Positions 4,740 through 47,957 of a stretch of DNA of 50,452 nt are shown one piece after another. Each line of letters opens with the position of its first letter. Position 1 is the first letter of the stretch. The position numbers and the translations under genes are program-made. This DNA comes from Acidobacteriota bacterium (GTDB lineage Bacteria > Acidobacteriota > Terriglobia > 2-12-FULL-54-10). The stretch is taken from positions 1 to 50,452 of the forward strand of contig JACQGE010000095.1 of NCBI GenBank assembly GCA_016199675.1. Reading direction: 5' to 3'. The notes under the pieces were generated by a model. That model was not told where the DNA came from. It was given only the letters and a program-made list of their open reading frames with translations, and ran no database searches.

Positions 4740-5771
4740 ATGGCTCGTGACGCAAGCATCGCGCTTAGTGTAATCGCCTTTGGAGTCGGGATGGCAATTT
4801 GCTATTTCGCGGCTGCAGTGATCCAGACGATTCTGGTTGCCATCTTGCTTGCGCTGCTGTTGGACCCGCCTGTGGAAAGGCTGCGACGATGGAAATTCCC
4901 ACGGACTTTTGCGGTGCTCCTGATGCTCTTGCTTTTTCTGGGAGTGGTCTCGGTTAGCTCTTTCTACTTGTATAGCAGCGCACAAGAATTTATCGAGGAA
5001 CTCCCCAGCTATTCTCAAGACATCCGTCAGAAGATATTGCAAATCCGCAGGAGAGCAGAACGAATACAGCAGCAGACCGAGCAGGTAATCCCGCCAGCTC
5101 AAGAGGAGGCAGAGGCAGTAACGGACCAATCACTCTGGTCCCGTTATGTTTTTCCTGGTTCCGAAAGAATTTTCAACTTCATCATCCTGGTCAGCTTTAT
5201 CCCGTTTATGATCTTTTTTCTGCTCACCTGGAAAGAACGCCTGTACGCAAGCTGTCTTTCCGGATTTCCGGAACAAGAGCGGCCGGGCATTGCTCAGCTT
5301 CTGCATACGATTTCGGGCATGCTGCGAGGATTTCTTATTGGAAATTTTTTCGTCGGTTTAATTCTTTCCGCGATGGGCGCCATCTTGTTCTTTGCCCTGA
5401 AACTGAAATACGCTGTTTTGCTAGGTCTGATTAGCGGATTCCTGAATTTGATTCCGTATGTCGGCATTGTTCTGGCGATGATCCCGCCATTTCTGGTGAC
5501 GTTGGAACAGCCCCGGAATACGCAATTGCTATTTATCCTGGCCGGGGGCATCTCAACATTCCATTTGGTAGGGTTAAATGTGTTTTATCCGAAAATTGTT
5601 GGCCACAGGGTCAGATTGAATCCCTTTGCGGTTATGGTAACACTGCTGGTATGGAGTTGGATGTGGGGTCTCATGGGTTTTATCTTAGCGATTCCCATCG
5701 CTGCGGGTGCAAAAGCTCTGTGCGACAACACCGGCCAGTTGCGGCCCATCGGGCGGTTATTGGGTGAATAG
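4740..5771 (+). CDS. AI-2E family transporter (PerM/YdiK-type permease)
   Basis: Multi-TM protein, LLALLLDPPVERLRRW and GLISGFLNLIPYVGIVLAMIPP motifs. Confidence 0.85.
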   Translation: MARDASIALSVIAFGVGMAICYFAAAVIQTILVAILLALLLDPPVERLRRWKFPRTFAVLLMLLLFLGVVSVSSFYLYSSAQEFIEELPSYSQDIRQKILQIRRRAERIQQQTEQVIPPAQEEAEAVTDQSLWSRYVFPGSERIFNFIILVSFIPFMIFFLLTWKERLYASCLSGFPEQERPGIAQLLHTISGMLRGFLIGNFFVGLILSAMGAILFFALKLKYAVLLGLISGFLNLIPYVGIVLAMIPPFLVTLEQPRNTQLLFILAGGISTFHLVGLNVFYPKIVGHRVRLNPFAVMVTLLVWSWMWGLMGFILAIPIAAGAKALCDNTGQLRPIGRLLGE

Positions 5772-5772
5772 G

Positions 5773-6024
5773 ATGGATGAGTCCGAGGGACGAACGAGAA
5801 GTGTTCGATTGCGTTGCCTCCACCTAGATCCGGCCGGATGGCAGTGCCCTGCCGAGGCATTGGAAGGGAGCGAGTTCTGCACCGACCACCGGCCCTTTTT
5901 TGATGCGGAAGAAACGGAAGCGAAAAGCAGCCGCCCTTTGCTGTACCGGCTAGCCGCTCTGATCCTTCTGTTGATCTTTCTTTTTAATGCCTATCAGATT
6001 TCTTGTGCTGGAATGGGCCGTTAG
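5773..6024 (+). CDS. Small Cys/His-containing membrane protein
   Basis: Internal ATG at 5773 of ORF 5707-6024; RCLHLDPAGWQCPAEALEGSEFCTDH plus one C-terminal TM helix; directly follows AI-2E gene. Confidence 0.5.
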   Translation: MDESEGRTRSVRLRCLHLDPAGWQCPAEALEGSEFCTDHRPFFDAEETEAKSSRPLLYRLAALILLLIFLFNAYQISCAGMGR

Positions 6025-6806
6025 CCCACAACATCTTCCCCACCATCCACTCCAATCACGTTGCCGGTAATCCAATACGTATTCGACTGAGCGAGCACGC
6101 CGATGGCGGCGGCGACATCTTGCGGCGTCGTCAGGCGTTTATGCGGGTTGCGAGCGATTGCGAACTCCATCAGCTTTGCACTGCCGGGAATTTTTCGGAG
6201 AGCAGGAGTATCGGTGACACCGGCGCGAATGGCATTGGCCGTGATGCCGAGCCGGGCCAGCTCCAAAGCCAGTTGACGGATATGCGATTCCAGGATGGCC
6301 TTGGCCGCTGAAACCGGCCCGTAATGGGGCAAGACGCGCGTTCCCCCGGAACTGGTCATGGCGAAAATGCGCCCCCCACTCTCCATCAGGTCGTTCTTTA
6401 CCAAGTCTTGTGTCCAATAAACCAGGGAGTGGCCCATAACGTCGGCGGTCATCTCCATCTGCGATTGAGTCACAGCATTTTCGTTGCCGATAAAGGGCTG
6501 CAATGTGCCAAAGGCCAGCGAATGCAGCAGCACCTGCACGGTACCGGGTTGTTTTTGAAACTCCTGTTGGATGCGGCCAATCACTTCTTTGCGTTTCTCT
6601 TCATCGGCAGCGTTCGCGTTAAAGAAAACGGCTTCGCGGCCTGCTTGCCGAATCCTACCGACGACCTCCTCTACGTGCGGCAGCGCCGAGCGGCGGTCGA
6701 AGTGAACCCCGAAGATGTTGTAGCCCAAGCGCGCCAGTTCCAGCGCCGCCGCTTCCCCGAACCCGCTCGACGCTCCCAGAATCAACCCCCACAACGTTTT
6801 CTCCAT
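6021..6806 (-). CDS. SDR family oxidoreductase (enoyl-ACP-reductase-like)
   Basis: ILGASSGFGEAAALELARLG, YGPVSAAKAILESHIRQLALELARLGITANAIRAG. Confidence 0.8.
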   Translation of the reverse strand: MEKTLWGLILGASSGFGEAAALELARLGYNIFGVHFDRRSALPHVEEVVGRIRQAGREAVFFNANAADEEKRKEVIGRIQQEFQKQPGTVQVLLHSLAFGTLQPFIGNENAVTQSQMEMTADVMGHSLVYWTQDLVKNDLMESGGRIFAMTSSGGTRVLPHYGPVSAAKAILESHIRQLALELARLGITANAIRAGVTDTPALRKIPGSAKLMEFAIARNPHKRLTTPQDVAAAIGVLAQSNTYWITGNVIGVDGGEDVVG

Positions 6807-6815
6807 TTTTCTTTG

Positions 6816-7334
6816 TCACGCTCCCTTTTTTTGGTTCCCGGCATCGCTGCGCTTTGCCCTGCCGCTTCGGCTTGTTTCATCCGGCGAATGAAACTCAATC
6901 CTGCGCTCTGTGTCGTTCGCTGCTTCCAGGTGAATCTCTACCAGGCGGCCCGCCAGCCAAGGCGCGCGAAACGCAGGCCCAAGCTTCTCCCCCCACTCCA
7001 CAAGCACCACGGCGCGTTCGGCCATCAGGTCTTCCAGGCCGAGTGTCTCCAAGTCTCGCGGCGTTTCCACGCGGTATAGGTCCACGTGATAGACACGCTG
7101 GGCATTCTCTGAGGCGCTTCCATATTCGTGCACCAAGGTGAAGGTCGGGCTGGTAACTTCCTCTTCCGAAGCGGCTCCCAGTCCTGCCACTAACCCTTTC
7201 GCCAGAGTTGTTTTCCCGGCTCCCAATTCGCCGATCAGCAGGACCACCACTGGCGGCCTGAGTTGCCGGGCGATCCGGCGGCCCAACTCGATGGTTTTTT
7301 CCGGCGAATGGGTAACGAAGATATGGCGGCCCAT
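6816..7334 (-). CDS. tsaE: tRNA threonylcarbamoyladenosine biosynthesis ATPase TsaE
   Basis: LIGELGAGKTTLAKGLVAGLG, VTSPTFTLVHEY, HVDLYR; start refined to internal Met because the tracked ORF overlaps nnr. Confidence 0.9.
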   Translation of the reverse strand: MGRHIFVTHSPEKTIELGRRIARQLRPPVVVLLIGELGAGKTTLAKGLVAGLGAASEEEVTSPTFTLVHEYGSASENAQRVYHVDLYRVETPRDLETLGLEDLMAERAVVLVEWGEKLGPAFRAPWLAGRLVEIHLEAANDTERRIEFHSPDETSRSGRAKRSDAGNQKKGA

Positions 7335-7335
7335 T

Positions 7336-8946
7336 TCAGCAGCGTCCGGTCCCGGCTGTCTCGTTTCGCGAAGTTTCTTCGGGCGCACGCAAAGCCTCAG
7401 GCAGGGCGTCAATCAAGTCTGTGGAGAGCAAAGAAAGTTCTCCCTTGCGGGCTGCGGCTACGTCTCCCGCGGCTCCGTGCCAATACACTGCCGTTGAAAC
7501 CACTCGCTCCACGGGCATCTCCGGGTACTGCGCCAACAGCCCAGCGATTATTCCGGCCAAAACGTCTCCGGTGCCTGCGGTTGCCATTCCTGGGTTGCCT
7601 GTCGAATTCACGTATAGCTGACCGCCGGGCTCGGCAATGAGTGTTCGATAACCTTTCAGCACCACGTACGCTTTGTGCTCAACCGCAAACTCCCGCACCA
7701 CTTCGACGCGCTTGGACTGGATTTCTTTGGTGCTGAGGCCGGTCAGGCGAGCCATCTCGCCCGGATGCGGCGTCAGGATGAGCTTGCGTCCTTCGCCCTG
7801 CAACAGTTCAGCGGCTCCCGTGAAGGCATTCAATCCATCGGCGTCCACAACGACGGGGAGTTGTGAATATTCTCGGACGACTCGCCGCACAAACTCAACC
7901 GTATCGGGGTGAGTGGTAATACCCGGCCCGATAGCCAGGACTGATTTACCTTCCGCCATCCGGGCGAAGCGTTCGTTATCAAAGGCGCGGGTAGAGATTG
8001 TGCCGTGATCGTTTTCGGGCAGCGGTTCCGTCATCAATACCGGGGCGACTCCGGCCACCAGCGGCAAAATACTTGAAGGCACTGCTGCTGTCACCAAGGC
8101 GGTCCCGGCGCTGAGCGCGCCCATCGCCGCCAGCGCCGCCGCTCCACTCATCCCGCGCGATCCGCCCACCACCAGCACATGCCCGTAGTTGCCCTTGTGG
8201 GAACTGACGTGGCGTTTTGCTCTTAGCCCGGTCAATATCTCATCTCCCAGCAAGTTCAAAAAAATCGAAGGGTCCTCCTCCACAGTAGAGGCTGGCGTCC
8301 CGATAGGCGTAACGAACAATTCACCCACCCGCTCACAGTTGGGCGGGAAGATGTGGCTCCATTTGGGAGCCGTGAAGGTCACTGTATAGCGAGCCTTTAA
8401 GGATTCTCCAAGTGCCTGGCCAGTATCGCTCGGCAGACCGGAAGGCATATCCACGGCTATGATGGGGATGTGGGCGAAGTGGGCATTCAGGTCTCGGATG
8501 ACCTCTAAGTAAAAGCCTTCCACCGGCCCTTCCAGGCCCGTGCCTAACAGGGCGTCCACCAGAAGAGTCGAAGTGAGCAACTCGGACCGGATTGCAGCCC
8601 AGTCCTTGAAATCCCGGACAACGGCGGGAGGCCAGCCTGCCTTCACAAGGATCTCATAATTGACTTTGGCGTCGCCTTTGAGGCTGGCGGGATCCGCCAG
8701 CAAAAAAACGCGTGGCCGGTAGCCTCGCATGAGCAACTGCCGGGCGACGACGAACCCATCCCCGCCATTGTTGCCCTTGCCGCACAGGATGGCGATCTGC
8801 TCCTGCTGGAGCACCGGAAATTTTTGCTGGATCAGGTGGAAGACATTGCGCCCGGCGTTCTCCATGAGCACCAGGCTGGGCACGCCAAATTTCTCCGTTG
8901 TGAGGCGATCCACTTCCCGCATTTGCCGGGCGGTAAGGATTTTCAT
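7336..8946 (-). CDS. nnr: Bifunctional NAD(P)H-hydrate epimerase / ADP-dependent dehydratase
   Basis: N-terminal YjeF_N (ILCGKGNNGGDGFVVAR) and C-terminal carbohydrate kinase-like domain (ILTPHPGEMARL, NSTGNPGMATAGTGDVLAG). Confidence 0.93.
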   Translation of the reverse strand: MKILTARQMREVDRLTTEKFGVPSLVLMENAGRNVFHLIQQKFPVLQQEQIAILCGKGNNGGDGFVVARQLLMRGYRPRVFLLADPASLKGDAKVNYEILVKAGWPPAVVRDFKDWAAIRSELLTSTLLVDALLGTGLEGPVEGFYLEVIRDLNAHFAHIPIIAVDMPSGLPSDTGQALGESLKARYTVTFTAPKWSHIFPPNCERVGELFVTPIGTPASTVEEDPSIFLNLLGDEILTGLRAKRHVSSHKGNYGHVLVVGGSRGMSGAAALAAMGALSAGTALVTAAVPSSILPLVAGVAPVLMTEPLPENDHGTISTRAFDNERFARMAEGKSVLAIGPGITTHPDTVEFVRRVVREYSQLPVVVDADGLNAFTGAAELLQGEGRKLILTPHPGEMARLTGLSTKEIQSKRVEVVREFAVEHKAYVVLKGYRTLIAEPGGQLYVNSTGNPGMATAGTGDVLAGIIAGLLAQYPEMPVERVVSTAVYWHGAAGDVAAARKGELSLLSTDLIDALPEALRAPEETSRNETAGTGRC

Positions 8947-31814: not shown

Positions 31815-31855
31815 TGACCTCCCCCGACTGCGCTCAGGGCAGCGCACGCGGCTCA
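31815..31855 (-). repeat. Stop-codon-abutting repeat, copy C (3' end of hpnE)
   Basis: gacctcccccgactgcgctcagggcagcgcacgcggctca. Confidence 0.6.
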
Positions 31856-33247
31856 GAAGCTGCTGAGGAAGCGCACGAGGGGGTCGGTGGGCAGGTCAGG
31901 TTGGAGGAATTGTTGGGGGCGGGCGGTGGCGCGGGTCACCTCTTCGGCGGCGCGGTAGCCGCTGCGCACTGCTCCCTCCATCGTGGGAGGCCAGCCGCTG
32001 GCAGTCCAGTCGCCCGCCAGAAACAGATTGTCGAAAGGCGTTTCCGGGCCGGGCCGCAGGGCATCTGATCCTGGCGGGAAGGAGAGAGTCGACTTGGTTT
32101 CCTTCACGACTACGGATTTTAGCAACTTGGCCTCTCGCGCCTTAGGGAAGAGCTGTCGCAGTTCTTCGAGCGATAATTCCAAGATTTCTTCGCGCCGCAT
32201 CGGCACCAGCGTGCGGGAAGCGCTTACGACCAACTGAATGTAGTTGGAGCCATCCGTTTTGCCCGTAATCGCGGATTTGTTGAAAACCCATTGAATCGTC
32301 CGGCCCAGTACCGCAGCGTGGTGCAGATCGGTGATGGGCTGGTCAAACCACAGATGGATGCCGGTGATGGGCGACCATTCCAGCGATGCCAAGGCCGCAA
32401 TCCGGGGCCACTCTTTTCCAAAAGTTTCTGGAAGTAACGCAGCCAGGGCATCGGGGGGCAGGGCGCTGATGTAATAGTCAGCCATTTTCTCTTCTCCGTT
32501 CCTTAGGCAGACTCCGGCGATGCCATGTTCAGAAAGTTTCAATGAGGCGACGTGCGTACCCAATCGCAGTTTGCACTTCTCGCGCAAGAGGCGGCTGGAG
32601 TACAGATCGCTTAGCGAGATGGTGGGGATTCCCATGCGGTAGCCGGAGCGGTTGCGAAGGAAAGATTCTCGGAAGACCTGAAAGGCGGGGCGCGTGGAGA
32701 GTTGCTCCAGATCCTCGTTCAGCGCGCTAACCAGGACGGCGCGCCAGAAAAACTCGATGGCCCGGCGCGTCTGCCGCCGCTGCTGGAGCCAGTCGATTAA
32801 GGGCTGGTCGGGCAGGGGATTACGGCTGCGAAGGATGGCTCCCATGGCCTGCATGATTGCCCAGCGGTCGCGCCAGTCCAGGTCACGGAAACGCAGGAGC
32901 GAAGGGAACAGGTGAAAGGGAGCCGGGAGCGCTGAGGCACTGATGGAGGATAGGCCCTGCGGGCCTAAAAACAGAAAGCGATTGTAAAAGCGAAACTGGT
33001 TGGCGGTACCGGTGCGCTGGAAAAAGTCCATCAGGTTAGTGCAGCAGCCGAGCAGAACGTGCTGGCAGTTGTCAATGGGTTCAGGCGGCTCAGGTCCCCC
33101 AGGCGGAAGGAAAGAGGAGGCCCGACCTCCCAGCACGGAGCGCTTTTCCAGCAGCTCGACGTTGTAACCAGCTTCTATTAGGCGGACTGCCGCCGCCAGT
33201 CCAGCCAAGCCTCCTCCCAGGATGATTACTTGCGCCCCTGCTGCCAT
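31853..33247 (-). CDS. hpnE: Hydroxysqualene dehydroxylase
   Basis: VIILGGGLAGLAAAVRLIEAGYNVELLEKRSVLGGRASSF; C-terminal NLFLAGDWTASGWPPTMEGAVRSGYRAAEE; next to hpnD/hpnC. Confidence 0.92.
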   Translation of the reverse strand: MAAGAQVIILGGGLAGLAAAVRLIEAGYNVELLEKRSVLGGRASSFLPPGGPEPPEPIDNCQHVLLGCCTNLMDFFQRTGTANQFRFYNRFLFLGPQGLSSISASALPAPFHLFPSLLRFRDLDWRDRWAIMQAMGAILRSRNPLPDQPLIDWLQQRRQTRRAIEFFWRAVLVSALNEDLEQLSTRPAFQVFRESFLRNRSGYRMGIPTISLSDLYSSRLLREKCKLRLGTHVASLKLSEHGIAGVCLRNGEEKMADYYISALPPDALAALLPETFGKEWPRIAALASLEWSPITGIHLWFDQPITDLHHAAVLGRTIQWVFNKSAITGKTDGSNYIQLVVSASRTLVPMRREEILELSLEELRQLFPKAREAKLLKSVVVKETKSTLSFPPGSDALRPGPETPFDNLFLAGDWTASGWPPTMEGAVRSGYRAAEEVTRATARPQQFLQPDLPTDPLVRFLSSF

Positions 33248-33557: not shown

Positions 33558-34460
33558 CTAAAATCTTTCAACCTTGCGGGACTGAATTGCCTCGTTCCAG
33601 TCACGATGGAAACACATACGGGCGGCTTGTAACACGAGATGAATTTTTTCCATGTCGGACAAAACGGCGGGGCGGGAAAAAACGTTGCCATCGTTGCGCT
33701 CGATAGAGCGGAGAATGCCGCGATAAATCGAGATGAGGGCCCACAAAGCCGAACGGGTCTCCGGCTCCACCATCTCAATCAACGGATAAGCCCGCTCGTA
33801 AAATTGGCTGGCGCGCTCGATTTCAAACTGCATCAGCTCACGGAACTGCTGATTATAAACCGCCGCCATCAATTCTTCAGGGGAATAATGAAACCGCTCG
33901 AGGTCTTCAAGGGGAAGATAGACGCGGCCGTTTTGCACATCCTCACGGAGGTCGCGCAAAATGTTGGTCAACTGAAACGCGATCCCGCATTCCTCCGCGA
34001 GTTTCTTGGCTGCCGGATCGCGGAAGCCCAGGATGTATAGCGAGCACAAGCCCACCACGGCGGCCACGCGATAGCAGTAATGGTATAGATCTTCAAAAGT
34101 ACGATAGGAGCGGATGGTGAGGTCCATTTCCGTTCCGGTGATGAGCTCATGCAGATACTCGACAGGGATGGAGTATTGCCGGACGGCACGATGGAAGGCG
34201 GGCCAGATCAAGCTATCGCCATAATCACCCGCCAGCGCCCGATCTAAGGACTGATGGCAATTCTCTAGCTGAATCGCTTTTTCCGAAACGCTTGCCTCCC
34301 CGTCGGCTACGTCATCGCAATAGCGCATGAAAGCATAAACCGCGTAGAAGGCTTCCCGACGCGGTTTGGGCAGCAACAGGAAGCCGTAGTAAAAGTTTTG
34401 AGCGCGCGCTCGCGCCAAACGGCGGCAGTACCGGGAGGAAGCTTCAAGAGTGTTTTTCAT
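33558..34460 (-). CDS. hpnD: Presqualene diphosphate synthase
   Basis: FYYGFLLLPKPRREAFYAVYAFMRYCDDVADG, RDLREDVQNGRVYLPLEDL. Confidence 0.92.
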   Translation of the reverse strand: MKNTLEASSRYCRRLARARAQNFYYGFLLLPKPRREAFYAVYAFMRYCDDVADGEASVSEKAIQLENCHQSLDRALAGDYGDSLIWPAFHRAVRQYSIPVEYLHELITGTEMDLTIRSYRTFEDLYHYCYRVAAVVGLCSLYILGFRDPAAKKLAEECGIAFQLTNILRDLREDVQNGRVYLPLEDLERFHYSPEELMAAVYNQQFRELMQFEIERASQFYERAYPLIEMVEPETRSALWALISIYRGILRSIERNDGNVFSRPAVLSDMEKIHLVLQAARMCFHRDWNEAIQSRKVERF

Positions 34461-34548: not shown

Positions 34549-35499
34549 TTACCTTCGCTTCTCGGGTTTGCGGGAGAAAATCCGGCGCGCTAGGGCAGAA
34601 GCCAGTACGAGGGCTTTGTCATCGGAGTCTAGAGATGGCCGCCGCGCCAAGACATTATAATTTAATCGTTCGATCCGGCGCAGGACTTCGATGCCGCCGC
34701 GGCTGAACAGCTCAATGTCCATCGCCAGCCGCCGGTCCACGCGCACGGTCAGAGGCAAACCGAGATCAAACAATCCCCAGGTGCGCTCGACGAGTTCCCG
34801 GAGCAGGCTTGCAAAGCGCTCATCATAGCGGAAGGCGCGAAGGTCTTCCTGCTCTGAATAGCCGTGCTGTGCCATGGATTCGAGCGGAATGTAAACGCGG
34901 CCGATCTGATAATCCCGGCGAACATCCTGCCAGAAATTGGCAAGCTGGAGGGCGGTGCAGGTAAAGTCAGAGAGACGGTGCAGTTCCGGATCGCGGTAGC
35001 CGCAAACATAAAGGACGAGACGGCCCACCGGATTGGCGGAATAGCGACAATAGTCCAGCACCTCCGCCCAGGTCTGGTAGCGGGTCTTGCTTTGATCCAT
35101 GCGGAAGGAGGTGATCAAATCCCGAAAAGGTTCTGGGGGAATTTCACATTGCTGGATCGTTTCCCGCAGAGCGACGAACACCGGATGACGGGCCTGCCCT
35201 TGGTAGCAAGCAAGAAGTTCATCTTCCCACCGTTGCAGAAGGGCCAGGGAGCGGCGGCGGTCGCCGACTTCATCCGCCAGGTCATCGGCCCAACGGCAGT
35301 AGGCATAGACGGAGTAAAAGTGAGGTCGCAGGCGGGCAGGAAGAAGAAAGGTAGCTACATGAAAATTTTCATAGTGGGTTCTGGCTAAAGACTCGCAATA
35401 GTGACGAGCCTCTTCGAGCGAGGCCGGGCGAACCGGGAGGTTACCGCTCCAGGCCGCGGGCGGTGGCTGCAAAACAGAAGTATCGGCCTCAGATTTCAT
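34549..35499 (-). CDS. hpnC: Hydroxysqualene synthase
   Basis: HFYSVYAYCRWADDLADEVGDRRRSLALLQRW, QDVRRDYQIGRVYIPLESM; second squalene-synthase-like paralogue in cluster. Confidence 0.92.
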   Translation of the reverse strand: MKSEADTSVLQPPPAAWSGNLPVRPASLEEARHYCESLARTHYENFHVATFLLPARLRPHFYSVYAYCRWADDLADEVGDRRRSLALLQRWEDELLACYQGQARHPVFVALRETIQQCEIPPEPFRDLITSFRMDQSKTRYQTWAEVLDYCRYSANPVGRLVLYVCGYRDPELHRLSDFTCTALQLANFWQDVRRDYQIGRVYIPLESMAQHGYSEQEDLRAFRYDERFASLLRELVERTWGLFDLGLPLTVRVDRRLAMDIELFSRGGIEVLRRIERLNYNVLARRPSLDSDDKALVLASALARRIFSRKPEKRR

Positions 35500-35609: not shown

Positions 35610-36641
35610 CTACGGGATGATGGCGGTTTTCAAGTCTCCGTTGCGGTTCGCCATATGCCGCAGCACCTCGGGGAGACGAGTCAATGGTGATTGGCCGGTG
35701 ATGAAGTGTTTCCCCTGGATGTCGCCGCGATTGATGCATTCCAGCGCCTTACGGATGTAGGTGGGTGTATGGTGGAAACTGGCTTTGATGGTGATCTCGG
35801 AATAGTGCAGCCGTGAAGTGTCCAGCCGGACGCTGCTGCCGCTGGGGCATCCTCCGAAGAAATTGACGGTTCCCCCGCGGTGAACCATGCCAGCGGCCCA
35901 TTCCCAAGTCAGAGGCGTGCCGACGGCCTCAACAGCAATATCCACTCCATCGCCATCGGGAGTGCGGCGACGGACTTCCGCCACCACATTTTCCGTTTCC
36001 GTGCTATTCACAATCTCGTCCGCGCCCATTCGTTTAGCCGCGAGCAATTGACTGGGCCTTTTCCCGATGGCGATCACTCGCGCGCTACGGAGTTTTGCCA
36101 GCCGGACAAATAGCAAACCGATAGGTCCCAGCCCGATGATGGCCATCGTATCCCCAGACCGTAATCCGGTTTGGTCCACACCCCGCAGGACGCAGGCCAG
36201 AGGCTCGACCAAGGCCGCATCCGCGAAATCAATATGATCCGGGATCTCCAGTAAATTCTGTCGGACAATGGGGCCTGGAATTCGGATGAATTCGGCATAA
36301 GCGCCATTGTTGAACAAGAGGCGTTCGCAAAGATTGGCGCGATCGCGGCGGCAATAACGGCACTCTAGACAAGGGGCGGAATTCGCCGCGACGACCCGCA
36401 TTCCCTTGTGGAAGTTGCGAACATCCTCTCCCACTTTCTCTACTATCCCAGCCAGTTCATGCCCGAAGATGGCGGGCGGGACAATCATACGCGCGTGATA
36501 GCCCTGCCGATACACCTTCAGATCCGTTCCGCAGGTAAGGGCGGCTTTCACGCGCACCAGCACCTCATCGGGAGATAATGGCGGCACGGCCACCTGTTCT
36601 ATGCGCAACTCCTCTTTGCCGTACAATACGGCTGCTGTCAT
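35610..36641 (-). CDS. Zinc-dependent MDR alcohol/polyol dehydrogenase embedded in hopanoid operon
   Basis: CGTDLKVY, GHELAGIVEKVG, CLECRYCRRDRANLC structural Zn site, IIGLGPIGLLFVRLAK Rossmann; start refined from tracked ORF end 36722. Confidence 0.88.
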   Translation of the reverse strand: MTAAVLYGKEELRIEQVAVPPLSPDEVLVRVKAALTCGTDLKVYRQGYHARMIVPPAIFGHELAGIVEKVGEDVRNFHKGMRVVAANSAPCLECRYCRRDRANLCERLLFNNGAYAEFIRIPGPIVRQNLLEIPDHIDFADAALVEPLACVLRGVDQTGLRSGDTMAIIGLGPIGLLFVRLAKLRSARVIAIGKRPSQLLAAKRMGADEIVNSTETENVVAEVRRRTPDGDGVDIAVEAVGTPLTWEWAAGMVHRGGTVNFFGGCPSGSSVRLDTSRLHYSEITIKASFHHTPTYIRKALECINRGDIQGKHFITGQSPLTRLPEVLRHMANRNGDLKTAIIP

Positions 36642-36779
36642 TTGCCCTATCCCGGCACTTTTTTCCTCGCAGATTTCTGCAGTTTTCTGAAGAATCAACT
36701 TACTATCTCCAATAGCTGGCAACCCTGTAAGTCTCGGTGGGGAAGATGTGGGGCTGCATGATCGCTTTCCCTTAGGATT

Positions 36780-37502
36780 TCAAGACCGATATAAGGCTGC
36801 CCCCAAATTTTTGGCGGCAAGGCGAGCGCCCAGCCCGAGCGCCCACAAATCCCGCATCCCCTGCCAACTTTGAATTCCTTTATGGATTACCCGCATGGCG
36901 GACAACTTTCCATGGTCGCTCCGACAGTCCTGAAAGTCAATGGAAATACTTTGTTTGGAATCATCGGTAATGGACTTGATGGCTCCAAAGGGCACTCCGG
37001 CCCGAGCAGCAGCGCGCGCGACCCCAGAGGATTCCATATCCACGGCGAACGCTTTGTGGCTCTCGCCAAGCCGCTGTTTTTCCGCTGAGGAACTGATTAC
37101 TCGGTTCGCAGAAAGTAGGATTCCTCGCCGCGCGTCATTGACGGGAAGTAGGTCGCCCCGGCAGAAAAAATTCTCCCCAGTGTCTAAATCCACGACGCGG
37201 TCCGCCATAATGACATCCCCTGGCAAAACAGAACCTGATAGCCCTCCGGCAAATCCCAATGAGAACAATCCTTGGACCTCAAATTGTTGCGCCAATTCCT
37301 GTGCGGCGCGGAAAGAGTTTTGTGGGCCTGTCCCCCCAATGGCCAACACAGTCGGGGTTTGTCCTAGAGTCAAGAAATAGACGTTGTCACACAACCGCCG
37401 GGCATGGAATCGTTTGCTCAGCAAGAATTGAACTTCCCAGCGCAGGGCTGCCACAATTCCCAGAGAAGGAAGCGTCGAGGATAAAGATTGATGGGAAAGC
37501 AT
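36780..37502 (-). CDS. hpnG: Hopanoid-associated nucleoside phosphorylase (adenosylhopane nucleosidase-like)
   Basis: IGGTGPQNSFRAAQELA, GLFSLGFAGGLSGSVLPGDVIMADRVVD, AVDMESSGVARAAARAGVPFGAIKSITDD; start overlaps hpnA stop (ATGA). Confidence 0.9.
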   Translation of the reverse strand: MLSHQSLSSTLPSLGIVAALRWEVQFLLSKRFHARRLCDNVYFLTLGQTPTVLAIGGTGPQNSFRAAQELAQQFEVQGLFSLGFAGGLSGSVLPGDVIMADRVVDLDTGENFFCRGDLLPVNDARRGILLSANRVISSSAEKQRLGESHKAFAVDMESSGVARAAARAGVPFGAIKSITDDSKQSISIDFQDCRSDHGKLSAMRVIHKGIQSWQGMRDLWALGLGARLAAKNLGAALYRS

Positions 37503-38515
37503 CAGGATAGCCCTCCCTGGACCTTGCCGTTTTCCCGGAACCATGCAATGGCTCGTTCCAAGGCGTTCTCCACCGGACCGGACCGGTAGCCCAGTTCCCG
37601 TTTGGCCTTGGCTGAACTCGCATACATTTTATAGCGAGCCATTTTCACCGCTTCGAAGGGGATGCGAGGCGGACGGCCCGTGAAACGCGCTGCCCAAGAA
37701 TTCACGGCTCCGGCGCACAGGGCAACTCCGAAGGGGAGTTGCCAACAAGGAGAGGCCAGCCCAGTGATTTGAGCCAGCGCGTCCAAGATTTCCTTGAAGC
37801 TCATGTTGCGCCCACCGAGAATATAACGCTGCCCGGGTTTGCCATAATGCAGAGCGGCCAGATGCCCAGCCGCAACGTCCCGCACGTCTACCAAGTTCAA
37901 GCCAGTATCAATATAGGCTGGCATCCGGCGATTCAGGAAATCCAAAATCATTTTTCCCGTTTCTGTCGGTTTACGATCCCCCTCTCCGACCGGGGCAGTG
38001 GGATTTACAATCACAACTGGAAACCCTTCCCGCGCATGGCGCAACACCTCTTGCTCGGCCAGAAACTTCGACCTTTTATAAGGGCCGGAGAGGGTGCGTG
38101 GATCGGGGAAATCTTCTTCCGTACCGTCCGCACCATTGCGAGGAACCCCAATCGTTCCCACGGTGCTGGTATAAACCATGCGGCTGATTCCAGCTTCTCT
38201 GGCCACAGCCAACATGTTCTTCGTACCGTCCACGTTGCTTCGATACAGTTCCATTGGATCCCGGACCCAGAGGCGATAATCGGCAGCGACATGGAAAACG
38301 GTCTGGCAATCTTTCACGGCCCGTTGCAGCGAATTCTTGTCCTGCAAATCCCCAGCGGCGATTTCCACCGGCAACCCTTCCAGCGAATCAAGCAAGCTGG
38401 TTGGTCGCGCCAGGACCCGAACAGAGAATCCTTCCGCGCAGAGCCGTTGCACTACATGACTGCCAATAAAACCCGTTCCACCGGTCACCAAAACCTTGCT
38501 GATCGTGGCCTGCAT
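37502..38515 (-). CDS. hpnA: Hopanoid-associated sugar epimerase (extended SDR)
   Basis: VLVTGGTGFIGSHVVQRLCAEGFSVRVLARPTS, YKRSKFLAEQEV, VNPTAPVGEGDRKPTETGKMILDFLN. Confidence 0.93.
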   Translation of the reverse strand: MQATISKVLVTGGTGFIGSHVVQRLCAEGFSVRVLARPTSLLDSLEGLPVEIAAGDLQDKNSLQRAVKDCQTVFHVAADYRLWVRDPMELYRSNVDGTKNMLAVAREAGISRMVYTSTVGTIGVPRNGADGTEEDFPDPRTLSGPYKRSKFLAEQEVLRHAREGFPVVIVNPTAPVGEGDRKPTETGKMILDFLNRRMPAYIDTGLNLVDVRDVAAGHLAALHYGKPGQRYILGGRNMSFKEILDALAQITGLASPCWQLPFGVALCAGAVNSWAARFTGRPPRIPFEAVKMARYKMYASSAKAKRELGYRSGPVENALERAIAWFRENGKVQGGLS

Positions 38516-38530
38516 TTGCCTACTTGCTGA

Positions 38531-38570
38531 TCTTCACAGGCTCAGGGCAAACTCCGCGCGGCTCGGATTA
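38531..38570 (-). repeat. Stop-codon-abutting repeat, copy D (between hpnH and hpnA)
   Basis: tcttcacaggctcagggcaaactccgcgcggctcggatta; terminal tta is hpnH TAA stop. Confidence 0.75.
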
Positions 38571-39572
38571 AGAGCGGAGCGCCCAGGCCATCATCTTCAA
38601 AGTGTCACCCAGCTTTCTGTTCACCCCTAAAGCGGCGGAGGGCTCATAGCCGCAATGCACCATGCAATTCTCGCAACGGGGGTCTTTGCCATACCCATAT
38701 TTCTCCCAAGGCGTGCGGTTCAGGAATTGCTGGAACGTAGGATGGTGGGCATCGGTCATCAAATAGCAAGGCCCTTTCCATCCCTTGGTGTTATAAGTGG
38801 GGTTTCCCCAGGCAGTGCAGGTAAGTTCCCGTGTCCCTTTCAGGAATTCCACATACACCGGAGAACTATTCAATTTGAATTTGCGAAAGAGGCGGTCAAT
38901 ATCCCTGAATTTTTCCCGGATCACCGCCCGGTCCATGAAAATTTCTTTGACCTGCACCGCGCTATAAGAATACGCGGGAGAAAGCATATGCCCATCGCAA
39001 CCCAGAGTCTGCAAATAATCGAGCATGGCCTCGACTTCTCCCATATCGGTTTCCTTATAAATGGTGGTGTTCGTGCAAACCAGGAAACCTGCGGCTTTGG
39101 CCGTCTTGATGCCCTCGATGGCAGCCCGGAAAACGCCTTTCCTTTCCACGCATAGGTCGTGGGTTTCTTCCAGCCCGTCCAGGTGCACGTTGAAGAAAAA
39201 CCGGGGCGAAGGCTGGAACTCCTGGAGGCGCTTCTGGATGAACATTCCGTTGGTGCATAGGTAGATGTACTTTTTGCGCTTCAGCAGTTCCGCCACGAGT
39301 TCCCCCAGGGGGGGATAAATCATGGGTTCGCCACCGCAGATTGAGATGATGGGGGCGCCGCAGTCTTCTACCGCGCGGAGGCACTGTTCGACCGTCAGTT
39401 TCTCCCGGATTGTTGCCTCGTATTCCCGGATGCGCCCGCAGCCGGTGCAGGTGAGATTGCAGGCATGAAGCGGCTCCAGCATCATTACCAGAGGGAACTT
39501 TTCCCGACCCTGAAGTCTTTTCTTCAGGAGGTAACTCGTCATGGTTGCAGTCATGCGGAGCGGAAATGGCAT
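38568..39572 (-). CDS. hpnH: Adenosyl-hopene transferase, radical SAM
   Basis: MLEPLHACNLTCTGCGRIREYE, ISICGGEPMIYPPLGELV, CRRCENCMVHCGYEPSA-type C-terminus (RCENCMVHCGYEP). Confidence 0.95.
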   Translation of the reverse strand: MPFPLRMTATMTSYLLKKRLQGREKFPLVMMLEPLHACNLTCTGCGRIREYEATIREKLTVEQCLRAVEDCGAPIISICGGEPMIYPPLGELVAELLKRKKYIYLCTNGMFIQKRLQEFQPSPRFFFNVHLDGLEETHDLCVERKGVFRAAIEGIKTAKAAGFLVCTNTTIYKETDMGEVEAMLDYLQTLGCDGHMLSPAYSYSAVQVKEIFMDRAVIREKFRDIDRLFRKFKLNSSPVYVEFLKGTRELTCTAWGNPTYNTKGWKGPCYLMTDAHHPTFQQFLNRTPWEKYGYGKDPRCENCMVHCGYEPSAALGVNRKLGDTLKMMAWALRS

Positions 39573-39654: not shown

Positions 39655-41661
39655 TTAGGCCATCTGCAATTCTGACAGCCGCCTGGCAGTGGTGCGAGTG
39701 GAGGGCCTCCGGTAAAAATACTCGCTCAGCGCCAGGATCGGAAAGTAAACGCTATACAGGTGGTATTTCAAATAAAAGACGCTCGGAAATCCAGTCCCCG
39801 TAAAGGACTCATCTTTCCACACCCCGTTTTTCTGCTGCGTTTCCAACAGAAATTGCACGCCCCGGGCCGCCGATTCCGACTCAAAGTCATCGGTGGCAAA
39901 TAAGCCAAGTAAAGCCCAGGCCGTCTGGGTTGCCGTGCTGGGTCCTTCGCCGCGCAACGCGGGGTTATCATAAGAGCCGCAATCTTCCCCCCATCCGCCA
40001 TCCGGATTTTGGCAGGAACGCAGCCACTCGGCGGCGCGCAGGCAAAAGCCCTCGCGCATATCCACTCCAATCGCCGCCAGGCCTCGGAGGGCAAAGCAAG
40101 TGCCGTAGATGTAGTTGACTCCCCAACGCCCATACCAGCAGCCATCGCTCTCCTGCATCTCGCGTAAGAAGTTTATGGCCCGGTGGGCGGGAGGGAATTG
40201 GGCATCGTATCCCAGGGTTGCCAGCGTTTCCAGTACCCGGCCTGTGATATCCGCACAACTGGGATCGAGCATGGCATTATGATCGGCAAATGGCACGTGG
40301 CCAAGAATGTCTTTATTAATATCTTTATCGAAAGAGGCCCAACCGCCATCGCTTGACTGCATGCTCAACATCCATTCCAGGCCGCGATGGATCGCTTCCC
40401 GCTGGCGGGAAATATCCGGCAGGCGAACCCGGCTGAGCGCCAGCAGGACCATCGCGGTATCATCCACATCGGGAAAAGGATCATTGGCGAATTCAAAAGC
40501 CCAGCCACCGGGTTTTCCTTTCGGATTCGTGATGATCCAATCGCCCGGCTGCAAGACTTGCTTCTTGATGAGCCATTCTGCAGCACGACAAAGCACGGGG
40601 TGGGCCGGAGGAAGCCCGCTCTGGGCAGCAGCAAACAAGGCTTGTGCTGTGTCCCACACCGGCGAGAAGCAAGGCTGCATCCACATCGTTTCCTGATCTT
40701 CGAGCGCCAATCTCCAGAATTCGGCGACCTGGCGGCTAAAGAGCGGGTCATCATGGTCATACCCCAGGCAATCCAATGCCAAGATCGAATTCAGCATAGC
40801 CGGATAAATTGCTCCCAAACCGTCGCTGCCTTCCAGATGCTTCACAATCCACCGCTCTGCATTTCTCAGAGCTTTGCGGCGCAAAGGAACCCACTGCCTA
40901 CGCTCGAGAGTGGCGAGAAACCAATCGGCGGTTTGGAAGAAAGATTTCCAACTCAATTCCAGGTTGCTCAGCGAGAGCAGGCGTTCACCATTGGCTCCGT
41001 TATTGTTGACGTACAAGCTTTGCAGGCTGACTCCCTGCGGAGGAATTCGCCGCGGCTGGAAGGCGTAGATGACGGACAAGGGCACTACAATGGCTCGGGT
41101 CCACGCCGAGACTTCATGAAGATTGAAATAGGCTGAGGGAGGGAGCAAAACAAGCTCTGGAACGACGGCGGGGACTCTTGCCCAATCATACTGCCCGAAC
41201 AGACACAAATAAATTCGCGTGTAGCTGTTGGCTGCCTCTATACCGCCTAGTTGGAGCGTAATCTCCCGCGCTTTGCGGAGAACGGGATCCGATTCCCGGA
41301 AGCCGGCCAACCGCAGAGCAAAATATGCCTTGACCGTCAGGCTAACATTGGGAGAACCTCCGGGGTAGAGACTCCAACCTCCCGCTGTCGTCTGTTGTTC
41401 CCGGATGCTATTGGCCAGCTTGCGAATCCGCTCGGGGTGGGGATCGCCCAAGTAATATTCCAGAAGAATTGCATCGGATTCCAGGGAACTATCGGCTTCA
41501 AGTTCTCCGACCCAATATCCTTCCTGCCGTTGTAACTGGAGTAAATATTGGACAGCAGCCTGGAGACCCTCTATAACAGAACTGGCTGCGGGGCGAAGGG
41601 AAAAAGGCCGTGGCTTCCATTCGGCTGTGGTCATGCCATCCAATGACTCAGGGCTGCTCAT
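39655..41661 (-). CDS. shc: Squalene-hopene cyclase
   Basis: FPDVDDTAMVLLAL (DxDD), multiple QW motifs (SSDGGWASFD, NPDGGWGED), WYGRWGVNYIYGT. Confidence 0.97.
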   Translation of the reverse strand: MSSPESLDGMTTAEWKPRPFSLRPAASSVIEGLQAAVQYLLQLQRQEGYWVGELEADSSLESDAILLEYYLGDPHPERIRKLANSIREQQTTAGGWSLYPGGSPNVSLTVKAYFALRLAGFRESDPVLRKAREITLQLGGIEAANSYTRIYLCLFGQYDWARVPAVVPELVLLPPSAYFNLHEVSAWTRAIVVPLSVIYAFQPRRIPPQGVSLQSLYVNNNGANGERLLSLSNLELSWKSFFQTADWFLATLERRQWVPLRRKALRNAERWIVKHLEGSDGLGAIYPAMLNSILALDCLGYDHDDPLFSRQVAEFWRLALEDQETMWMQPCFSPVWDTAQALFAAAQSGLPPAHPVLCRAAEWLIKKQVLQPGDWIITNPKGKPGGWAFEFANDPFPDVDDTAMVLLALSRVRLPDISRQREAIHRGLEWMLSMQSSDGGWASFDKDINKDILGHVPFADHNAMLDPSCADITGRVLETLATLGYDAQFPPAHRAINFLREMQESDGCWYGRWGVNYIYGTCFALRGLAAIGVDMREGFCLRAAEWLRSCQNPDGGWGEDCGSYDNPALRGEGPSTATQTAWALLGLFATDDFESESAARGVQFLLETQQKNGVWKDESFTGTGFPSVFYLKYHLYSVYFPILALSEYFYRRPSTRTTARRLSELQMA

Positions 41662-42614
41662 AGCTGAACAGTTGCTCCACTCCGTGCTTCCAGTTCTGGC
41701 GGCAGAGCAAAGCGGACATCTTCGGCAATGGTTTCCACTTCTTCGAGGCAGTCAAAGCCCTGTGCTCGCAAGAAATCGAGCACGTGCTGGACCAGATATT
41801 CCGGGGCAGAGGCTCCGGCCGTCACCCCTACCGTGCGGCTGCCCTCTAACCAAGTCATCGCAATCGCTTGTTGATCCTCAATTAAATAAGAGGGGAGTCC
41901 CTTGTTTCGAGCGACCTCGACCAGGCGGTTGGAATTCGAGCTGTTGGCGGAACCTACCACCAGCAATAGGTCGCAGATGGACGCCACAGTTTTCACAGCG
42001 AGTTGACGATTCTCAGTGGCATAACAGATGTCTTGCGCCGGAGGACCCACAATGTTCGGGAACTTGACTCGCAAGGCCGCGATAATCCCCCTGGTTTCGT
42101 CCAGGCTCAAAGTCGTCTGAGTCAAATAGGCCACGCGGGAAGGATCGGGGAACGACAAACCAGCCACTTCTTCCTCCGTGCTGACCAGCCTGGTTTGACC
42201 AGGGGCTTCTCCGAGAGTTCCGATGACTTCATCGTGGTCCTTGTGGCCGATCAAAATGATCGAATATCCCAGGCGAGCAAAGCGAACCGCTTCCAAGTGT
42301 ACTTTGGTGACGAGTGGACAAGTGGCGTCAATGACTCTTAGTTTCCGGGCAGTTGCTTGCTGGCGAACTTCCGGGGAGACTCCGTGGGCGCTGAAGATGA
42401 TCCGTCCTCCCGGAGGTACTTCGTCAACGGAATCCACAAAGATGGCTCCACGGCGCGCCAGATCGGCGACCACCGGAGAATTGTGGACGATTTCTTTCCT
42501 CACGTAGATAGGAGGGCCATAACATTCCAGAGCTATATTGACGATGTCAATCGCCCGTACCACTCCGGCGCAAAAGCCGCGAGGTTTCAGAAGAAGAATT
42601 CTTTTTGAGGCCAT
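41658..42614 (-). CDS. ispH: 4-hydroxy-3-methylbut-2-enyl diphosphate reductase
   Basis: KPRGFCAGVVRAIDIV, VHNSPVVADLARRGAIFVDSVDEVPPGGRIIFSAHGVSP, DATCPLVTKVH; 4-bp overlap with shc. Confidence 0.96.
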   Translation of the reverse strand: MASKRILLLKPRGFCAGVVRAIDIVNIALECYGPPIYVRKEIVHNSPVVADLARRGAIFVDSVDEVPPGGRIIFSAHGVSPEVRQQATARKLRVIDATCPLVTKVHLEAVRFARLGYSIILIGHKDHDEVIGTLGEAPGQTRLVSTEEEVAGLSFPDPSRVAYLTQTTLSLDETRGIIAALRVKFPNIVGPPAQDICYATENRQLAVKTVASICDLLLVVGSANSSNSNRLVEVARNKGLPSYLIEDQQAIAMTWLEGSRTVGVTAGASAPEYLVQHVLDFLRAQGFDCLEEVETIAEDVRFALPPELEARSGATVQL

Positions 42615-46883: not shown

Positions 46884-47957
46884 CTATTTTTCTTTTAAGC
46901 GCCGCAGGCATTCTTCATAGGGAGCGGTGGCGATCCCGCGCTCGGTGATGATGGCAGAAACATAGACATGAGGGGTCACGTCGAATGCAGGGTTGTGAAC
47001 AGCGACGCCTGCTGGCGCGATTCTCACCCCCTGGATCTCAGTGACCTCGGTCTCCGGCCGCTGCTCGATAGGGATCGCTTCGCCAGAAGGGATGGAAAGG
47101 TCTATCGTGGAAAGCGGAGCTGCCACGTAAAACGGGACTCCGTTTTCTTTTGCCAGCACAGCGACCGTATAGGTTCCAATCTTGTTGGCCACATCACCAT
47201 TGGCTGCGATGCGGTCGGCTCCTACCACCACACATCCAATTCGTCCTGAGTGCAGAAAATAACCGGCCATGTTGTCGGTGATGAGAGTCGTTGGAATGCT
47301 GTCCTTTTGCAATTCCCAGGCCGTCAGACGCGCTCCTTGGAGAAATGGGCGGGTTTCTAGGGCTATCACATCTATATTCTTTCCTAGACAGACCGCCGAA
47401 CGGATCACTCCCAGCGCAGTCCCGTAGCCTGCTGTGGCCAGCGTTCCTGCGTTACAGACCGTCATCACGGTTTTGCCTCCCGGCACCAGGGATGCCCCAT
47501 GTTGCCCCATCGCCTTGTTGGCCTCAATGTCTTCCCTTTGAATGGCCAGCGCTTCTTCCTGGAGGCGCTGCTGGATGTCATGAATCTCCGCCCCTTGAGC
47601 CAGGAGGTCATCAAATACCTTTTTCATGCGCCGGATGGCCCAGAATAGATTGACGGCCGTCGGCCGAGTCGCCGCCAGAGTATTGCAAATCTGATCAAAT
47701 TCTGTTTGCAGCGTATTCAAATCGCGCGTCTTGGAAGCCTGGATGCCGAGAGCAACGCCCATAGCGGCAGCCACGCCAATGGCCGGAGCGCCGCGCACGA
47801 CCATGGTCTGGATCGCCTCGGCCACTTCTAGATAGGTCCGGCAAAGACGGTATTCTTCCCGGTGCGGAAGCAGGCGCTGGTCAATCAAAACTATCCCTTC
47901 CGGCGTCCATTCCAGGGTTTTAACGGTATCGGCGGCTAGGTTCACAGATCCCTTCAA
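46884..47957 (-). CDS. mtnA: S-methyl-5-thioribose-1-phosphate isomerase
   Basis: [78 protein letters not shown]. Confidence 0.95.

Follow-up and report, generated by a model that had tools for sequence, protein, structure and literature searches.

A zinc-dependent dehydrogenase gene in the hopanoid operon of Acidobacteriota is a candidate for the conversion of ribosylhopane to bacteriohopanetetrol

Introduction

Which enzyme converts ribosylhopane to bacteriohopanetetrol (BHT), and is the dehydrogenase gene within an acidobacterial hopanoid operon a plausible candidate? BHT and related hopanoids are major lipids of bacterial membranes, and the hopane fossils that are used in geology derive from them. 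The primary papers on ribosylhopane are reportedly Liu 2014 and Bodlenner 2015, and a cell-free reduction is said to have been published.

The initial annotation of the window, i.e. the whole stretch of 50,452 nt that was analysed, had stated that no reductase is firmly assigned to this step. This still holds: a paper of November 2025 calls the enzyme “not established”, and the surroundings of the hpn clusters of Alphaproteobacteria yielded no new candidate (PMC12583986). In 2017, hpnA was proposed for the step; the same paper refers to evidence that Burkholderia cenocepacia does not need hpnA to form BHT (PMC5462960). According to that study, acidobacterial clusters contain “ug1”, which follows hpnG and was given no function, and a second gene, “ug2”, which is often situated just before hpnC and encodes a Zn-binding alcohol dehydrogenase with a length of about 350 amino acids. 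All SD1 and SD3 acidobacteria have ug2, and it is absent from Chloracidobacterium thermophilum, a maker of BHT derivatives; the authors associated ug2 with hpnCDE, left it without a function, and stated that the production of squalene by HpnC, HpnD and HpnE had been demonstrated in E. coli (Sinninghe Damsté 2017, PMC5462960).

Results

The gene of interest, here termed MDR2, is located on the minus strand at 35610..36641, with the ATG at 36641 and the end of the stop codon at 35610, and encodes 343 amino acids with no internal stops. Pfam detects the domains ADH_N (91.6 bits) and ADH_zinc_N (83.6 bits), both far above the gathering scores. The ligands of the catalytic zinc are found in the motifs CGTD (C37) and GHE (H61/E62), together with E146, the structural zinc site is of the Cys4 type (C91/C94/C97/C105), and the Rossmann motif GLGPIG is present at position 170. 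The zinc ligands are retained in 109-112 of 112 relatives that are linked to hpn genes. An AlphaFold model has a confident MDR fold (mean pLDDT 95.2), and its closest structures, with TM-scores of about 0.9, are TADH (4cpd), a Sinorhizobium dehydrogenase (4ej6), the NADP(H)-dependent ketose reductase of the silverleaf whitefly (1e3j), and sorbitol dehydrogenases. The whitefly enzyme shares the MDR polyol-dehydrogenase fold (TM-score 0.89) and the zinc ligands with MDR2, and both proteins have a non-acidic residue at the end of beta-2 that is followed by a basic one; it differs in having only 28% identity, fructose/sorbitol as substrate, a eukaryotic origin, and no link to lipids. By its domains, zinc ligands and modelled fold, MDR2 is a zinc-containing MDR of the polyol-dehydrogenase type, for which activity with a polyol, aldose or ketose is predicted. 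The intact zinc MDR gene with CGTD, GHE, Cys4 and Rossmann motifs, on one strand with hpnG and hpnC and between them, as initially described, is borne out by the open reading frame and by the Pfam and NCBIfam searches.

None of the curated NCBIfam MDR families matches MDR2 at its cut-off. The best is the scyllo-inosose 3-dehydrogenase IolM (NF041097), with 166.8 bits versus a cut-off of 450, and HpnZ and the other curated MDR families are all far below theirs. Orthology to threonine dehydrogenase, which had been considered in the initial annotation, can be dismissed, as the match to L-threonine 3-dehydrogenase (TIGR00692) reaches 156 bits versus a cut-off of 458. A scan for promoters and terminators around MDR2 gave nothing above shuffled sequences.

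The gene order in the window is ispH-shc-hpnH-hpnA-hpnG-MDR2-hpnC-hpnD-hpnE, with all genes on the minus strand. Profile searches (NCBIfam) identified ispH (41658..42614) and, above the respective cut-offs, the squalene-hopene cyclase gene shc (39655..41661; TIGR01507, 706 bits), the gene for the radical SAM adenosylhopane synthase hpnH (38568..39572; TIGR03470, 447 bits), hpnA for a hopanoid-associated SDR “sugar epimerase” (37502..38515; TIGR03466, 458 bits), hpnC for squalene synthesis (34549..35499; TIGR03464, 338 bits), and hpnE for the hydroxysqualene dehydroxylase (31853..33247; TIGR03467, 442 bits). The assignments of hpnG, encoding a putative adenosylhopane nucleosidase/phosphorylase (36780..37544), and of hpnD, encoding the presqualene diphosphate synthase (33558..34460), rest partly on context, because their best matches are below the cut-offs (TIGR03468, 115 versus 187 bits, and 250 versus 279 bits, respectively). 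An mtnA-like open reading frame, recognised by eye only, is present at 46884-47957.

Near relatives were retrieved by scanning 84,980 species genomes, and for all of the best 80 hits, i.e. the nearest by selection, hpn genes are found within 9 kb of MDR2 (80/80). Because these relatives were selected as nearest, a survey of 160 genomes of the class, all at least 95% complete with the exception of the window's own genome, is the less biased test of linkage. HpnH was detected in 141 and MDR2 in 136 of the 160 genomes; 136 have both, none has MDR2 only, five have HpnH only, and 19 have neither (Fisher p ~2e-20, with shared ancestry ignored). The MDR2-negative genomes are spread over several families, two of which (f76 and f77) contain positive genomes as well. 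Of the five genomes with HpnH and no MDR2, one (G338) contains an MDR fragment adjoining hpnC that is cut by the contig edge, and in another (G007) the contig ends next to a transposase-like ORF, with everything downstream of hpnH missing. In 114 of 122 places, hpnC/hpnD come after MDR2. The linkage of MDR2 with hpn genes is far above chance, and the gene is gained and lost together with the hopanoid pathway across the class. Its presence in the operon and its joint gain and loss with the pathway make MDR2 a good candidate for a BHT-forming enzyme.

The scores of the HpnH proteins of the class fall into two groups, one of about 515-558 bits and one of about 400-450 bits; that of the window belongs to the lower one. 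Two genomes have two HpnH genes each (G311, C145/C108; G329, C58/C71), the second of which (~253 bits) is situated about 3-4 kb from MDR2 on one contig.

The initial annotation had described a single MDR gene in the operon. This is true for the window, but the usual operon of the relatives has two: in all 74 relatives for which the upstream region is long enough, a further MDR gene, MDR1, lies directly upstream of MDR2, between hpnG and MDR2. The two proteins are about 30% identical. In Granulicella-type genomes (our own label, based on gene order and PMC5462960), the cluster is split, with MDR1 remaining with hpnA-hpnG and MDR2 with hpnCDE. Because the split clusters separate the two genes in this way, ug1 and ug2 can be taken as two MDR paralogues. 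The distance matrices of MDR1 and MDR2 are highly correlated (r = 0.96 over 97 loci).

The site of MDR1 is a gap of 138 bp in the window (36642..36779), and MDR1 is also absent from its expected place in the only other genome of the same family (G251, locus L202). Since both genomes lack it at the same place, an assembly artefact is unlikely, and a loss in the lineage is the better explanation. The window's genome encodes a further MDR on another contig (L002, G000 C115, 1480-2526), beside genes for class I and class II aldolase-like proteins; the surroundings resemble a likely sugar catabolic group, and a probable counterpart is found in G251 (C3:52490-53509). This protein was rejected as a moved MDR1, as it adjoins aldolases and groups outside of the hpn-linked MDR1 clade. 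It may be a functional stand-in for MDR1.

The two dehydrogenases have opposite coenzyme motifs. In 111 of 112 hpn-linked MDR2 proteins, the end of beta-2 is non-acidic, in most cases with K/R-R after it, which is the pattern of NADP(H) enzymes; the MDR2 of the window has G-K-R, which aligns with A-R-S of 1e3j. MDR1 proteins have D or E at this position (90/90), as is the case for NAD(H) enzymes. The motifs suggest that MDR2 is of the NADP(H) type, with a predicted preference for NADPH, and MDR1 of the NAD(H) type, and this opposition would be compatible with a reductive role of MDR2 and an oxidative role of MDR1.

To which part of the pathway MDR2 belongs can be judged from genomes with incomplete gene sets. 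Five genomes without HpnH and Shc (G249, G267, G278, G282, G288) have kept hpnC and hpnD and have no MDR2, which argues against a role in squalene synthesis. Three others (G255, G261, G291) have kept hpnH, hpnA and hpnC/D, two of them (G255 and G291) together with Shc, and in all three MDR1, MDR2 and a clustered hpnG are absent; weak, unlinked nucleosidase-like genes are present in two of the three. The joint absence of MDR2 and clustered hpnG indicates that MDR2 tracks HpnG. The distribution of MDR2 matches that of HpnG more closely than that of HpnH or of squalene synthesis, a pattern with few independent events behind it.

Homologues of MDR2 are also found outside of the hopanoid operon. 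Unlinked MDR1-MDR2 pairs or MDR2 homologues occur in hopanoid producers as well as in genomes without Shc and HpnH (G132, G221, G078, G207, G230). Because G132 and G221 encode homologues with 52-54% identity and neither Shc nor HpnH, the enzyme type appears to have a non-hopanoid use, too. The same is indicated for the pair by family f40 (L071/L072, ~5100-8600), in which a hopanoid producer (G066) and a non-producer (G221) have both kept it, directly after a proline-dehydrogenase-like gene (by eye). In the tree, the hpn-linked MDR2 proteins form one clade, with the sequences of f40 and of locus L063 just outside (SH-aLRT only, 93 for the linked clade and 98 for the larger group). L063 (7240-10412), from the hopanoid-free genome G132, carries a single MDR2 (54% identity) divergent to mtnB/mtnD/mtnC-like genes for 5-methylthioribose salvage, as recognised by eye.

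The nearest relative outside of the phylum, as found in a plasmid collection only, is a zinc-binding dehydrogenase of Rhodococcus opacus S8 (WP_242323970.1, plasmid pLPS8; 46% identity over 98% of the query). It differs from MDR2 in its context, where genes for an FGGY kinase, a class II aldolase and a DeoR regulator form an operon-like group, with no hopanoid genes nearby. Outside of the phylum, the genes of relatives share sugar/polyol operons with genes for kinases and aldolases. No MDR is present in five plasmid-borne hpn loci of Streptomyces, Azospirillum, Roseomonas, Burkholderia and Mycetohabitans, the only loci by which other phyla were represented, and many HpnH-positive Acidobacteriota outside of the MDR2 clade have no clustered MDR. 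The expected conservation of the linkage with hpnH/hpnG thus applies within the class (80/80 relatives; 136, 0, 5 and 19 genomes), but was not seen in the five clusters from outside of Acidobacteriota (0/5).

Two further loci were observed. One genome (L213, G266 C96, 2178-5778) contains another copy of MDR2, with 60% identity to that of the window. A squalene epoxidase-like gene (PF08491) follows 22 bp after it, and an oxidosqualene cyclase gene (TIGR03463, 601 bits), interrupted by the end of the contig, is on the other strand, so that MDR2 is beside sterol-type genes. A sequence titled Acidimicrobiia (L129, VFZE01000054.1) has MDR1-MDR2 in an hpn cluster of the acidobacterial type, with 62% identity to the window, and is perhaps a misnamed bin.

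Discussion

By its description, its length and its position, immediately before hpnC in SD1/SD3 Acidobacteria, MDR2 is the ug2 of 2017, so its linkage to the operon is already known (PMC5462960). New are the class-wide counts of MDR2 and HpnH, the joint loss with hpnG, the co-inherited MDR1 and its loss in the window's family, and the coenzyme motifs; the available part of that paper describes neither the MDR nature of ug1 nor the coenzyme motifs or the pattern of joint loss. Taken together, MDR2 appears to be a conserved, lineage-restricted polyol dehydrogenase of the NADPH type that is tied to hopanoid synthesis after HpnG.

We propose that, in Terriglobia-type Acidobacteriota, MDR2 acts after HpnG and on the C35 side chain of the hopanoids. 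It would reduce the C-35 aldehyde of ring-opened ribosylhopane to the primary alcohol, yielding BHT, with the catalytic zinc polarising the carbonyl and NADPH delivering the hydride. Substrate and direction are deduced from sequence features, and we assign this reading a probability of roughly 40%; that MDR2 is involved with the hopanoid side chain in one way or another is probable. The side-chain reductase proposed initially gains from the NADPH-type motif and from the outside relative in a sugar-kinase/aldolase operon, but the homologues in hopanoid-free genomes count against it. Two points from PMC5462960 also speak against it, i.e. hpnA as an alternative candidate and C. thermophilum, which makes BHT derivatives without ug2. 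HpnA (TIGR03466) and MDR2, both encoded in the window, are alike as hopanoid-associated oxidoreductase-type proteins proposed for the same step, and differ in that HpnA is an SDR and MDR2 an MDR. Because the five non-acidobacterial loci and, according to that source, C. thermophilum have no MDR2/ug2, MDR2 would be at most a lineage-specific BHT reductase; a universal one would have to be present in all BHT producers, and this idea was rejected.

The constant company of MDR1 could point to a different function within the side chain. MDR1 and MDR2 might be a redox pair, with oxidation by MDR1 with NAD and re-reduction by MDR2 with NADPH leading to an altered stereochemistry or a lineage-specific head group, and with BHT itself formed by another enzyme, as in other phyla. 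The position of MDR1 directly upstream in 74/74 relatives, the correlated distances (r = 0.96, 97 loci), the opposite coenzyme motifs, and BHT formation in groups without ug2 (PMC5462960) all fit such a pair, but MDR1 is missing from the operon in the window and in G251, where MDR2 has been kept, so MDR2 can stand alone. We know of no modified BHT stereochemistry in acidobacteria of the MDR2 type, which adds to the reasons for regarding the pair as a doubtful, if serious, alternative. A more remote alternative is that MDR2, or the pair, is a general dehydrogenase of small sugars or polyols, e.g. of a 5-deoxyribose- or methylthioribose-like product, and resides in the operon for a side purpose. 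The unlinked pairs in hopanoid-free genomes (L062, L072), the sugar kinases and aldolases next to relatives, and the 54% homologue divergent to mtnB/mtnD/mtnC-like genes would be accounted for, but such an enzyme would be expected to survive in some of the 19 hopanoid-free genomes, and none of the 136 class genomes with MDR2 is without HpnH; we regard it as distinctly unlikely. As ug2 was associated with hpnCDE in the 2017 study, one might regard MDR2 as a partner of HpnC/D/E in the synthesis of squalene, a function that is very improbable. It would agree with hpnC/hpnD following MDR2 in 114/122 places, with MDR2 staying with hpnCDE and MDR1 with hpnA-hpnG in Granulicella-type genomes, and with the second copy in G266 by genes for a squalene epoxidase-like protein and an oxidosqualene cyclase. 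However, hpnC/D persist without MDR2 in the five genomes without HpnH and Shc, and together with Shc in G255 and G291, so squalene synthesis was rejected as the main reading; moreover, HpnC, HpnD and HpnE have been shown to make squalene in E. coli (PMC5462960).

Under the preferred reading, i.e. MDR2 as the reductase of ribosylhopane, the NAD-type MDR1 of most relatives presumably works on the same polyol chain, e.g. in oxidation or stereochemical editing, and the window's family would have kept MDR2 alone in the operon. One may speculate further that Acidobacteriota have a side-chain unit of two dehydrogenases, in which MDR2 would convert ribosylhopane to BHT with NADPH and MDR1 would re-oxidise or edit the product with NAD, and that this unit was recruited into the hpn operon from an older acidobacterial sugar/polyol module as one of several independent solutions across phyla, with a different enzyme in charge of the step elsewhere; in its entirety, this scenario is rather unlikely.

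The cultured genera Granulicella and Terriglobus make the question of the BHT reductase directly testable in the MDR2 lineage. If the assignment is true for Acidobacteriota only, the step from ribosylhopane to BHT would have evolved more than once, and MDR2 would be a genomic marker for BHT in this phylum of soil bacteria.
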